DNA from: Armillaria gallica
Taxonomy: Eukaryota > Basidiomycota > Agaricomycetes > Agaricales > Physalacriaceae
DNA length: 64,000 nucleotides
Reading direction: 5' to 3'
NCBI GenBank assembly: GCA_037576215.1
Contig: JBANDB010000013.1
Location: 496,001 to 560,000, forward strand
Below, in pieces: positions 1,920 through 43,658 of the stretch (position 1 is the first letter of the stretch; every line of letters starts with the position of its first letter). The notes under the pieces are model-generated. The model was given only the letters and a program-made list of their open reading frames with translations, did no database searches and was not told the origin of the DNA. Both the position numbers and the translations under genes were made by a program.

Positions 1920-3579
1920 GTGATACGCTTGGTATCAGGCTACCCATAGATTTTGTGAATTTCTATCAAATAGCGCAGTCTACAAGTGGTACAGAGAGCT
2001 ATAGTGAAGGCTTTACACTGATAGCTAGTATACTACATAAGATAGTGAGCAATACAGTATCAGAACAGACTTAGAAGCAACATCTAGATGAGTCAACTCT
2101 ATAAGCCTTCAACACTGAATGCTATTCCCTGCCCAAAACAAGACTAGTTACAGTTGGAACCAAGGGACACATCGAGATGGGTTACAAACCTAAAGCAGAA
2201 CACAGAAGGACTAGATTACTCATCATCTCGACGACCTGAATGAACCTAGAAGAGAATTGCTAAGTCCACAATGGTTCACAATGTGAAATGAACTTAGTCT
2301 AGAACACGAATAAACTTGGAATAACTGAATAACCAATGCTTGGCGCCGAGATAGCTAAAGATCATGCAGTGATTGAAGCAAATACAATCTCGGTCCAACA
2401 ATCGATCACGATCAGTGGTTACATCCTCAAAATACTGCACAATTCATAGTATTGAATAGGAATCCACGTGGCAAGGCATGAAGGAGAAGCAAGGAGTTCC
2501 TACAGACCATTAGGACACTCCTCGGCAATAGAATGACCGCTAGTCATTCTGTCCAACTGAATAGAAACCTCAGAATGGCACAATCCTTGTAAATTAATTA
2601 CTCATCATTTGTATTGATACCCAAAGCTTGTACCATAATTACTTTTAGATACAAGCTCCTATACCTAGACTAGAAATCGTATAAATTAGCAGCGACTAGA
2701 TGCATAACGGCAGGAAAGCATTCCCCTGTGTTTGTGCTAGTAGCCTTATAGCTATCTAAACAATCACTGGTTTTAATTGCATATCCTCAACTGAAGTGAA
2801 TTAAGTTTACCAAGTCAACCCCAAAAGGGTGGCTATAAGTAATCTAGAAGAACTAAGTAGGAAGAAGAATCGTCCCTACGTTTGCGCCTTGCTAGTTAAT
2901 TGAACTGCTCCACATACAAAGGCCTCGTGCTCCCTCACCAACTAAAGTGATCTAGATGTGCTAAGTCAACCACAGACCAAAGACGTTACCTAGTTGAAGT
3001 GAAATAAGCCCTAGAATGCTTTAAGTTCAAATAGTTAATGAGTCAGTGTACTCTAGAGTCTGTGTACTCTTTGCAAGTCTCGTACTTGAAGCCAGGACCT
3101 GTGTGTTCTTTGTAGAGTCTGTGTACTCTTTGTAGAACTTCAGTTCTTTGTTGCAAGTGCATGTGCTTGTGTTGTAATCCAGTCTGTGTACTCCAGAGCA
3201 ATTACGCTCTTTGTAGACCTCTAGGTCTTTGATTGTTCAATTGTGAAAAGCTTGTCTAGTTTAAAGCCTTACCAGCTCTCCTAGATGAAGTTGTTTTGAG
3301 TCTAAGCCACTCAAATTATACCTTACAAACCCCCACATCCATATACCTTGCTATTGCGATTAGTGTATCTTGTGTAAACACTTCTAGATTTGAATCAAAG
3401 TTGTTTTGAAACAAACCCAATTGATTATCGATATCTAAGTACACCACAAGTGCTTCTACTGTACTCACCCTCAAACTTAATATTGGTGATTGTGTGTGTG
3501 TGTGTGTGATTAAGTATCTAGATTGATGATCTAGACACTTGTTTCATTTGCGCACTGCCCGTTACTGAGCACATCAATG
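1920..3579. mobile_element. 1.66-kb insertion inside the gypsy protease, class uncertain
   Basis: The protease frame is cut here and flanked by GCCACG on both sides (1914-1919 and 3580-3585), which fits a 6-bp target duplication. Just inside the junctions the ends read TGATACGCTTGGTATCAGGC (from 1921) and, on the reverse strand from 3576, TGATGTGCTCAGTAACGGGC. These match at 14 of 20 positions and five of the six differences are transitions. The TG...CA ends would also fit a solo LTR. There is no coding potential. Inside are approximate repeats of GTCTGTGTACTC/CTTTGTAGA at about 3050-3220 and a (GT)n run at about 3489-3508. One base on the left and three on the right remain unexplained. Confidence 0.6.
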
Positions 3580-39225: not shown

Positions 39226-39598
39226 TACTGTACCATTTGAATCACTTCGAATGTCACACGTCACAAAGGGTGCATTCGTATTCGTAAAATGGCCATGTGT
39301 CACGCGTCTCAAGGGCCTCATTCGGCAAGGTATAGTGTCACAAACTCAAAAAGGTGCCAAATTCGACGAAAAACGGCTGAAATTTGAATTTTTTTCTTCG
39401 ATATGCCAGTTTTACCACATTTCTTGCCTATTGCTGGTTGTTCCATGACTAGAATATTCAAGTAAATTGTACTTTAATAGCAATATTATTCGGATTTTGT
39501 ACGAATGTCACTGTCACTGGCCCCGTATTCGATCATTCGGTAAGGTACAAATATGTCGCATGTCACAAGCCATTCGAAGTGATTCAAATGGTACAGTA
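39226..39598. mobile_element. Palindromic-ended MITE, TA-flanked (Tc1/mariner-like by target site)
   Basis: A perfect 28-bp inverted repeat occupies 39226-39253 and 39571-39598 (outer part TACTGTACCATTTGAATC). Taking the outer TA at each end as a target duplication leaves a 369-bp AT-rich, non-coding element starting CTGTACC. It lies between two convergent genes, 46 bp beyond the MFS stop codon, and could supply 3'-end sequence to either transcript. The superfamily is inferred from the TA alone. Confidence 0.7.
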
Positions 39599-39897
39599 AC
39601 ATATCGGGGATCAACGGAGTTGAAGGTAGTGGTATAAATTCTGTTCATCTACCTACTTGCGAAGTACTTCCCTGATCAACCTCATTCGCACCTTTCTCCC
39701 CATCCTTTTGCTCGACCATCTTTTCCCGAAACCCACCTTGGTACCCAAACCACGTCTTGCGCTCACAATGTGGTCCACGCACGAGAAGAATCAAAAGCGC
39801 AAGGCCTGTCCATCCGAGCGATAATCCAGCCCCCGCCCTCCATCCATATTCCAGAAACACGCGCGAACCGACGTCGGCGCCCATAACTTGTCCAAGG

Positions 39898-40060
39898 TAG
39901 ACCTGAAACGCGGTCCCTCGATCCAATGAGCAAGCGTCGATTGTAGAGGGACCTGTAAAACTGAGTTTAAATTTAGCACAAAGTCGTTTCAGACCTCGGG
40001 AGCCTTCGGGCTTTCCTTTTTAATTTAGTATCCATATATGGATTTGAGTGATCAAAACCG
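39898..40060 (+). repeat. Left TIR of the Mutator-like element
   Basis: 163 bp, identical by eye to the reverse complement of 41190-41352. Identity stops sharply at 40060/40061. Confidence 0.92.
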
Positions 40061-40112
40061 ATCTGAGGCAATTACTACGCGTCGCGTCGCGTCTTGACTT
40101 CATCTACCTGCT

Positions 40113-41202
40113 CTACTCTTCTCGTAAGCAGTCGTAAATCTTGAAATCGTCGAGATTATTGACACAGTGTCGAGCATACATGGTATTGGGGCGATTGGAC
40201 GTCATTAGGATGAGGGCATAGCCAGGATTTAGTAGGGATGATTCGATAAAATGAAGAACATGCGGAGGACAGGTTGCCGTTAAACCTTGCCATGGAATGC
40301 TGCTGGGGAGCTGCAATTTGAGATCTCCAAGACGACCCCAAGCTTTGCGAAATGCGTCCAAGCCATACCTGCCAGTTCCTGCAAACCAAGTGAAATGAAT
40401 TTCGTCGACGTGAATGCGACCTATGCGCTTGTGAAAGCCATGGTCTCGGACAAGCAGACCAAACCGTGAGAAATGCCCTTCAGAAGATTTGAACAGCTGC
40501 TCCACTGTAATGACAAAATGGCTAGCAGTTGTCATCTGCGAAGCACCCTTTTTGCCGTTATGTACGTTATCCTATACCCAATTGTTAGATGCGACCATAT
40601 CTAAATGGATATTCAAAGTGTACCCTCCACCATTCAATATTTCGAGGTGAATCATCATTTATAGCTACTGTCTTGATGCCGTATTTCGCATTGAAAATTT
40701 CAGTCTGATCTACTTATGAGAGCTATTGCAAATGGCGGGTCAGAAAACATACGTGAGTAACTTGCAGCCGTTTCAGTGGAGATACAGTTATAGAAATACG
40801 GTCCGGAATGCTGTTGATAAGAAGCAGCAAGGCGATGACCAGGGTCTTCCCAGATCCTGTGCCTGCGATGACAAGGGAATCCTGGCCTTCATAAGATGCA
40901 AGCGTGGCCTTCAGTTGATTTTCGCGTGGAACCTCTGCTCCACCAGTAGCGTAGTATGCCAAAAGGCAGAAGCGATACAGAACGACGCGTTTTTCGATGG
41001 GAAAAGGTAGAATGTAGCTAAGGGGAACACGGCCTTCATCAATCCAGGCTATCCTTTGCACCAATTCATCATGAGAGGCACTTCTAACCTCAGAGAAAGC
41101 ATCAGAGACAGTAGATACACCAGAGCTACAGGTTTGTATCAGTCCAAGTGACGAATGACGCGAGAGAGCATGAAAGAACAACGAAAAGACGGTTTTGATC
41201 AC
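40113..41202 (-). pseudogene. Captured fragment of a RecQ-like DEAD/H helicase gene
   Basis: Three exons in phase (41202-40753, 40704-40624, 40571-40113) with GT-AG introns of 48 and 52 nt. Visible motifs: the Q-like lead NQLKATLASYEGQD, Walker A VIAGTGSGKT (about 40840-40870), TVSPLKRLQVT (Ia), HVDEIHF (motif II, DExH type, about 40391-40411), and GLTATCPP (motif III). It corresponds to helicase domain 1 only; domain 2, RQC and HRDC are absent. No in-frame ATG occurs before the third exon and a TGA lies just upstream of 41202 inside the TIR. It is thus a truncated captive, not a full gene. Retained introns show capture at the DNA level. No stops interrupt the remaining frame. Confidence 0.8.
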
Positions 41203-41352
41203 TCAAATCCATATATGGATACTAAATTAAAAAGGAAAGCCCGAAGGCTCCCGAGGTCTGAAACGACTTTGTGCTAAATTTAAACTCAGTTTTACAGGTC
41301 CCTCTACAATCGACGCTTGCTCATTGGATCGAGGGACCGCGTTTCAGGTCTA
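41190..41352 (-). repeat. Right TIR of the Mutator-like element
   Basis: 163 bp, reverse complement of the left TIR. The helicase reading frame begins just inside it and overlaps its inner 13 bases. Confidence 0.92.
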
Positions 41353-42819
41353 TGTCCAAGGAAGACCTGGAGCAGATCAGATTATTAGAGTGAAAAGGCA
41401 GCACATAGTTCTTTTCTCACCGATATGACGAATACAGCATTCAACCGAGCCGTAGCTTCTTTAGAGATACTGACAAAGCGAATCAGCGTCATAGCGACGA
41501 ACCCAAGGCGGAAATCGTCTACCTGAATATCGATATCTGAAGAGAGATTTGCAGCATCTGGCGGAATATGTCTATTCCCAGCACTGCCAGAATAATCTTT
41601 CAACAAATTAAGAAAACTGCTTGCCACAGGAACTGTGATGATACTGACGGGAGCGATGTTGATACCTGCCGCGCCTACCAAGAGGCCTTGGAAGCACGCA
41701 GTGAAAATCGTGGCAAGCACTGAGCTATGCCACGGAAGTAGCTTGTCGAGGACTCGACCCGCTGGATAATACATTCATGAGACGCGTTATTCCAAGTCCA
41801 AGTCTTGTTGAATCTCACCAAGTGGTGTCATGCACACGCCAAAGATTCCAATTAGTCCAAAAAGCCCGATCACCAGCCTAAGGATGGATGATTAGGTAAA
41901 TGAACATCCATCAAACCAGAAGCACATACGTAGAATAGTGATACGGTTCTCCGCCCAGTAAAAAAGTCAGCGTAACCCAAAAGTTCATCAGGCACGCAGA
42001 TGAGAGGAAGTTTACCAAGTATGCCTGTTCCCAACCATAAATGCGAGATATATTTCCCATTAAAGAAACGCACCTGAATCAGCAGCGGTTCTGTTACCGC
42101 AAACACCACCATGGACCTTATGAGCTCCCAATAGCCTAGATCCTGATTTTTCACGGGATAATCTGGGATCAGCGCATAGCATGCAACCAACACGACCCCC
42201 TGCATGCCTACTGCAAAGTAATACACCACCCGCCAGTCTGCAAACTGAGCTATCAATCCTGCAAAGACCCGCGCAATGAGGATTCCTAGGATCAGACCGG
42301 AGACGACGATAGATAGCGCAAAGGCTCGTTTGGAGGGCGGTGCCAAGTCTACTGCGAGGGATACAAGGACTTGAGGTATGTCATTGATTAGGCCGGCGAA
42401 GAAGGAGAGAACAAGGAACGCGTTCCAGTTGGGTACGAGAGCAAGGCAGAGTGTGAGGGAGAAGGAACAGAGGATGAGGGTGAGGATTAGCTGGCGACGT
42501 CGGAGAAGGTCTCCCAGAGGTCCGAAGAAAAAGAGTCCTACGGCATATCTGGCATGGATGAGGGAGGTGCCTATGATATAAGGAATAACACTCGAACCCG
42601 GCCTGTATAATAGTGGCGGCTCTGAATGCAGATGAGTAAGTAGCGTTCTGAAGTGGGAAAATGACCTACTTGGAGGATTCAAGATACGACACCTCGAAAA
42701 ACTCGGAGATTTGAACTAGAAAAAACATCGTTGACTGCTCGAGACATTGTAGTTACTCTAACTCACTTAACAACGGCTGACAATAGTACAAATTTGCTAC
42801 GGCTATAGACAGGTCACAG

Positions 42820-43445: not shown

Positions 43446-43658
43446 GGTCACAGAAATGAGCCTGGACTTGAACAGAGGTTGACGACGGACTTACTAAAAG
43501 TGCAGGCAAATGCGAGGAGGATATTGAGTCCTAAGCCAAATTGGCAAGGCCTTTCTGGATCGTAGCGGAGTTTTGGGGGGATAGGAATGAGGTTAAAATC
43601 CCGTGTGGGGCTCGGACAGCTCATCCTGACTTTGGGATGCGAAAGGACATCAGGCTGG

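Follow-up and report, generated by a model that had tools for sequence, protein, structure and literature searches.

How a piece of a helicase gene comes to lie between long terminal inverted repeats (TIRs) inside an exon of an MFS gene is the question raised by a short insert in a 64,000-nucleotide stretch of Armillaria gallica DNA (the window). An earlier note, made from the letters, had read the insert as a Mutator-like element of the Pack-MULE type that had captured a host helicase fragment. The alternative is that the helicase belongs to the transposon itself, and the two readings differ in what should be found between related ends elsewhere in the genome.

Structure of the insert and its site in the MFS gene

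The insert measures 1455 bp (positions 39898-41352). Its features, in window coordinates, are as follows:

39889..39897, no strand: left copy of the target site duplication (TSD) TGTCCAAGG, 9 bp, by sequence reading
39898..40060, plus strand: left TIR, 163 bp, starting TAGACCTGAAACGCGGTCCCTC; 35 genome matches
40061..40125, plus strand: left subterminal stretch, common to the same end in L009, L011, L012, L015 and L016 and partly in L010
40113..40571, minus strand: helicase exon 3, 3' truncated; relatives by tblastn
40572..40623, minus strand: helicase intron 2, GT..AG
40624..40704, minus strand: helicase exon 2
40705..40752, minus strand: helicase intron 1, GT..AG
40753..41193, minus strand: helicase exon 1 with the GTGSGKT motif; Pfam DEAD, 2e-6; 5' boundary uncertain
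41190..41352, minus strand: right TIR, 163 bp, 100% complementary to the left
41353..41361, no strand: right TSD copy, 9 bp
41353..41366, minus strand: first 14 bases (5 plus the TSD) of the interrupted last MFS exon
39660..39897, minus strand: rest of the last MFS exon beyond the insert, with matches to MFS proteins of Armillaria

Sequence comparison confirmed the outline that had been proposed for the element: the two 163-nt TIRs are 100% complementary (39898-40060 versus 41190-41352), the two TSD copies are identical at 9/9 positions (39889-39897 and 41353-41361), and no transposase gene was found inside the insert (39898-41352). The interior, described beforehand as an intron-containing piece of a RecQ-like helicase gene, was likewise borne out. 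The piece lies on the minus strand in three exons (41193-40753, 40704-40624 and 40571-40113) separated by GT..AG introns, and its frame is open for 326 codons to a stop at 40115-40113, counted from the first residue taken, with no start codon identified in the piece. Both extremities run into element sequence: the first bases of exon 1 fall within the right TIR, and the stop codon falls in sequence common to the left end. Sharing of this left subterminal sequence continues for ∼120 to 190 bp further in L009, L011, L012, L015, and L016 and is absent from the window copy.

The exon-1 frame matched Pfam DEAD (DEAD/DEAH helicases; 2e-6) and includes a GTGSGKT motif, which we take to be Walker A. 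No Pfam match was obtained for the exon-3 frame at 0.001, and no match to exon 1 was found among solved structures at an E value of 0.001. A protein search with the helicase piece returned 23 proteins of 319 to 679 aa at E ≤ 0.001 among 5665 candidates; the query was padded, so eligible candidates spanned ∼310 to 990 aa, with longer fusion proteins outside this range. The closest protein among these candidates, 50% identical, comes from Stygiomarasmius scandens, followed by relatives from Lyophyllum, Lactarius, Tricholoma, and Armillaria. DEAD and Helicase_C domains were present in all four relatives scanned. Because the three relatives compared with the NCBI RecQ family model all matched it well below its cut-off, "RecQ-like" would seem a fair label for the predicted protein and "RecQ" too strong.

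The host gene was interrupted where the earlier note had placed the insertion, in the last MFS exon. This exon follows an intron of 54 bp (41420-41367), and the element begins 14 bases after the splice acceptor, nine of these bases being the duplicated target. By its MFS homologs, the host belongs to Armillaria or close to it: the best homolog was 97% identical over the aligned parts, followed by those of A. ostoyae (90%), A. borealis (83%), and A. gallica (82%); the best named homologs (76 to 90%) are from Armillaria or Desarmillaria. Among the best 120 of 333 homologs, many of them fragments, FLGQVMGADVGSRVF runs uninterrupted across the insertion site in nine, all named Armillaria (P0028, P0029, P0030, P0032, P0033, P0035, P0039, P0042, and P0043; five 76 to 90% and four 60 to 65% identical to the query). 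P0031 and others match both flanks of the site without the exact FLGQVMGADVGSRVF string. Assuming orthology, these nine proteins would represent the empty site in relatives that had been anticipated, at the protein level. The insertion is apparently recent, with the caveat that TIR identity is a weaker clock than LTR identity: both TIRs are copied from the parent, where they may already differ or be homogenized.

Two other irregularities were seen around this gene. In the MFS gene, the match to exon 1 stops at 43496 and the following exon is matched from ∼42809; nearly 690 bp is long for an intron, and this interval possibly contains another insertion. In addition, a 373-bp MITE-like element (39226-39598) with perfect 28-bp inverted ends, TACTGTACC...GGTACAGTA, lies ∼300 bp from the insertion site; the TA at its termini would be compatible with a target of the Tc1/mariner type.

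Related ends and their target duplications

The left TIR proved multicopy, as the earlier note had expected (35 matches in a DNA search of the genome, two of them the window's own TIRs). Two pattern searches and reading of the loci distinguished three related end types, family A (TAGACCTGAAACGCGGTCCCTC), family B (TAGACCTGTGACCGGTCCC), and family C (TAGACCTGTAACCGATCGTC). A TAGACCTG-type start recurs in all three, and subterminal GAGCAAGCGTCGAT is common to A and B. The 13-base end pattern occurred 46 times per strand, compared to 18 and 16 times for the reversed control, and part of these occurrences is therefore chance; the other end pattern occurred 17 and 17 times, compared to 1 and 0 for its control.

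We looked for direct repeats of 6 to 11 bp flanking 30 end pairs. A perfect 9-bp TSD (9/9) was found in 18 of them, in agreement with the prediction that other copies would carry such duplications; L028 became the 19th once one end was shifted by a base, and L011 and L019 matched at 8/9 positions. Nine pairs showed no TSD (L074, L025, L018, L013, L009, L010, L012, L016, and L023), although L023 contains a shared 9-mer that is out of register. L012 and L016 have common flanks and represent a single insertion in two copies. Outside this table lay six further loci (L014, L015, L020, L022, L024, and L027), of which three have a close second end: the 46-bp copy L027 has a perfect 10-bp TSD, CCTAATTAAG (10/10), L020 matches at 8/9 positions at 9 bp, and a TSD was sought in L022 and not found. 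The duplication made by these ends is thus mostly 9 bp and once 10. Fuzzy TIR matches beside L051 and L054 were too loose and were discarded.

The shortest copies, 45 to 85 bp, consist of little beyond two facing termini. Perfect 9-bp TSDs flank the 72-bp L017 and the 68-, 85-, 45-, and 63-bp copies L070 to L073; the 69-bp L074 has no duplication. From the ultrashort copies with perfect TSDs, the sequence requirement for mobility seems to be very small. Three diverged copies of a single family-A insertion with shared flanks were also observed (C1:645994-646542, C1:750608-751132, and C1:771867-772406 in genome G000); they lie within ∼126 kb, one of them inverted, as a local segmental duplication.

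In Academ transposons, TSD length has been linked to the encoded helicase or nuclease, AcademH making 9 or 10 bp and AcademX 3 or 4 bp (PMC10045372, in excerpt). Mutator elements have TSDs of 8 to 11 bp and often long TIRs (PMC6446971, in excerpt). The lengths observed here (9 bp in 18/30 pairs plus L028, 10 bp in L027) and the long TIRs agree with both, and it is therefore the transposase and the cargo that separate the two readings.

The helicase within the three families and the DUF6589 neighbors of its relatives

The cargo was compared across the families. In family A, parts of one helicase gene occur in the window copy, at both ends of L011, at one end of the C8 copy, and in the three C1 copies. 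Family B has the helicase in L048 and L049, each beside one recognized end, which is upstream of the gene in L048 and downstream of the piece in L049, where none was found upstream. Two family-C elements contain it: much of the gene, interrupted by stops, in L055 (3642 bp; TIRs 95.6% identical over 135 bp; TSD GGCTTAGAT) and a piece in L052 (1444 bp; TSD CATTTCCGG). An inward-directed gene starting no more than ∼350 bp from an end is seen in the window copy, at the C8 end, and in L048, L055, and L052; the same is true of L011, apart from a nested insertion. The window exons share ∼44 to 61% amino-acid identity with the family B and C copies, and, family-A copies apart, helicase relatives in the fetched loci were detected at the protein level at ∼37 to 61% over stretches of at least 45 residues.

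Two of these loci were considered as autonomous copies and ruled out. The middle of the 11.5-kb C8 locus, between its two helicase pieces, is an LTR-type element, presumably gypsy judging by its motifs. In L055 (G000 C3) the helicase contains stops, and positions 3200-3545 belong to a very abundant repeat nested in the element (701 first-look candidates, 40 scored). A further nested sequence, 657 bp long, lies in a TIR of L011 (G000 C5:6396262-6398016); its inverted ends are TAGTGTTGCCACGGCTCG and its 8-bp TSD is TAAAAAGG, hAT-like by duplication length.

These observations bear directly on gene capture. A Mutator-type element carrying a captured host helicase fragment would account for long perfect TIRs, a 9-bp TSD, an intron-containing gene piece, and the lack of a transposase, and MULE domains do exist in this genome (at least three PF10551 matches in an exon-wise search). 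However, random capture from the host would not be expected to put one gene at one place in diverged families. No host parent gene and no closer free-standing gene were found in genome searches at the DNA and protein levels; the interior had 15 DNA matches, of which 14 lie in family copies or beside an end, and the remaining one (C8:4033182) is separated from its end by the LTR-type element. The different interiors expected of a gene-capturing family did not appear either: in a comparison that took in part of the TIR copies, family-A interiors consisted of parts of a single element and of nested insertions rather than of various host genes. An autonomous MULE with matching TIRs was also predicted, and the three 9-kb MULE-domain loci, all inspected, contain no pair of TAGACCTG-type ends. 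Two of them have an isolated single TAGACCTG each, and one bears other TIRs of ∼169 bp. We therefore rejected the MULE loci as partners of the window element and regard capture as very improbable. Given that the same helicase occurs in three diverged TIR families, its 5' end mostly lying immediately interior to one of the termini, and that its relatives pair with DUF6589 genes (below), the helicase is most likely the transposon's own gene.

Candidates for a second gene came from two sources. At the left end of L011, an ATG-started frame (MGDNQEVFPRFRD...) reads inward for 103 codons before the helicase junction, with a 74% match to its first 44 residues in L009 and L010, making this family-A left-end start a candidate second gene. 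A genome search found no longer copy (5 matches at E ≤ 1, all in family-A derivatives), no protein relative appeared at E ≤ 1 among 12 candidates of similar length, and the start had no Pfam match; on these grounds the frame was dropped as a transposase N terminus.

The second source was the C7 helicase, which is adjoined by a convergent DUF6589 gene (PF20231, 1.4e-62). A genome search with PF20231 gave 38 matches in 18 places, one of them below the family cut-off, and a helicase search with P0003 gave 26 matches in 19 places. At seven places, C7, C19, C9, C15, C5, C17, and C13, the two genes are no more than 2.3 kb apart, compared to a chance expectation of 0.08 pairs within 10 kb (0/20000 random placements reached seven). 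The pairs at C7, C19, and C9 are convergent, and the other four are divergent by their listed strands. Only the C7 and C19 helicases were found also by the window's own exons; the other five, at 26 to 28% identity to P0003, were missed by these exons and may be other RecQ-type genes. Since the exact 13-base end is not near any of the seven pairs, they are at best other subfamilies. The ends of the C7 pair were not found in the 6.5 kb examined.

The spacing is nearly equal in four of the pairs, with DUF6589 and the distant helicase 2273 to 2278 bp apart (C15:1991226-1995247, C5:3657267-3661289, C17:1588408-1592433, and C13:2126565-2130743 in G000), and these probably represent one larger element in four copies.

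Only L025 (C5:5026493-5028459) links DUF6589 directly to TAGACCTG ends: a DUF6589 C terminus (6.3e-11) lies there ∼110 bp inside the left end, between two family-B ends. The earlier note had named a partner of another superfamily with the same ends as evidence against a Mutator assignment, and L025 supplies this in part: the DUF6589 piece is enclosed by such ends, but the locus has no TSD, and its left end has stayed identical to that of its relative over only ∼35 bp. None of the loci examined combined TIRs, a helicase, and DUF6589 in one complete element. The C7 DUF6589 piece had no match among solved structures at an E value of 1, no DUF6589 relatives were confirmed in viral and prokaryote contigs, and no mention of DUF6589 was found in the literature searched.

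A native helicase could also belong to a Mutator-superfamily or other unnamed transposon outside the Academ lineage, given that TSD and TIR lengths alone do not separate AcademH from MULEs. Against this, the C7 DUF6589 pieces had no MULE Pfam match, the word "helicase" does not occur in the main text of a MULE survey as excerpted (PMC6446971), and AcademH is, in the published excerpts, a helicase lineage with 9- to 10-bp TSDs, both of which lengths occur here. We consider such a lineage unlikely, though less so than gene capture.

A probable deletion derivative and its place among known systems

Taken together, these data favor reading the window insert as a non-autonomous, internally deleted cut-and-paste TIR transposon, with a probability of about 0.8. 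In its full form, a RecQ-like helicase would read inward from one TIR, and a DUF6589 protein would most likely be the transposase. An internal deletion would have fused the left end (the TIR and ∼65 bp beyond it) with the central part of the helicase gene, taking away the second gene together with the C-terminal part of the helicase. Transposase supplied in trans by a fuller copy would then have moved the TIR-bounded remnant into the last MFS exon, where a staggered cut of 9 bp at the target, once filled in, would leave the duplication. We infer that DUF6589 is probably the transposase and that it acts on family-A ends. Of the earlier description, a mobile, non-autonomous, apparently young element with long TIRs and a 9-bp TSD in a basidiomycete exon stands; the label "Mutator-like" and the captured host helicase are not supported.

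Taken singly, the insertion is ordinary, one gene copy having been disrupted by a small non-autonomous DNA transposon. The wider proposal, that DUF6589 (PF20231) is the transposase of a class of helicase-encoding transposons in mushrooms and that the short helicase of deleted copies could titrate or poison that of full copies, seems to us evenly balanced. If it is true, an orphan family of "unknown function" gains a role; the helicase/DUF6589 pairing and the DUF6589 piece between like ends make that role testable.

Among known systems, Pack-MULEs of plants are TIR-bounded, non-autonomous elements that carry a gene piece, are moved in trans, and leave a 9-bp TSD. The window insert resembles them as a TIR-bounded passenger presumably moved in trans with a 9-bp TSD. 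It differs in that the helicase piece it carries most probably derives from the transposon itself and in that no MULE transposase with the same ends was found for it. A gene piece within long TIRs and a 9-bp duplication thus need not be a captured host gene.

Kolobok elements insert at TTAA with a 4-bp duplication. Their KolobokH relatives, known from fungi only, carry a RecQ helicase downstream of the transposase (PMC9587614, in excerpt), and in having a RecQ-like helicase as an accessory gene within a fungal TIR element, the window insert is like them. However, the TSD here is 9 bp of varied sequence rather than TTAA, and, if that target rule holds, assignment to KolobokH, the other helicase-encoding DNA transposon of fungi, is scarcely credible.

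The AcademH lineage of Academ DNA transposons was reportedly described in Kojima 2020 (Mob DNA 11:15). According to excerpts of a later source, AcademH is low-copy in Basidiomycota, and DEAD and Helicase_C are listed among the domains from AcademH, KolobokH, or Helitron (PMC10799480). In Marasmius oreades, insertions of MULE and Academ elements, both putatively non-autonomous, have been noted to be widespread (PMC8290104, in excerpt); the latter are comparable by description only, as non-autonomous elements in an agaric. Helicase and 9/10-bp duplication together fit AcademH. The helicase is encoded in the window copy and in elements of families A, B, and C, and the host is a fungus by its Armillaria and Desarmillaria MFS homologs. 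An Academ-type transposase would be expected in the autonomous partner, and DUF6589, found beside a helicase at seven places and as a piece inside family-B ends, is a candidate for it. The window copy is unlike AcademH in being a deletion derivative without a transposase, and its likeness, with DUF6589 as the presumed transposase partner, is drawn from the helicase and the TSD. We accordingly file the element provisionally, by inference, in the AcademH lineage. The window insert, which would be a rather ordinary representative of a transposon type that has been little studied, resembles AcademH, as excerpted, in being a helicase-encoding fungal DNA transposon with 9- or 10-bp TSDs.
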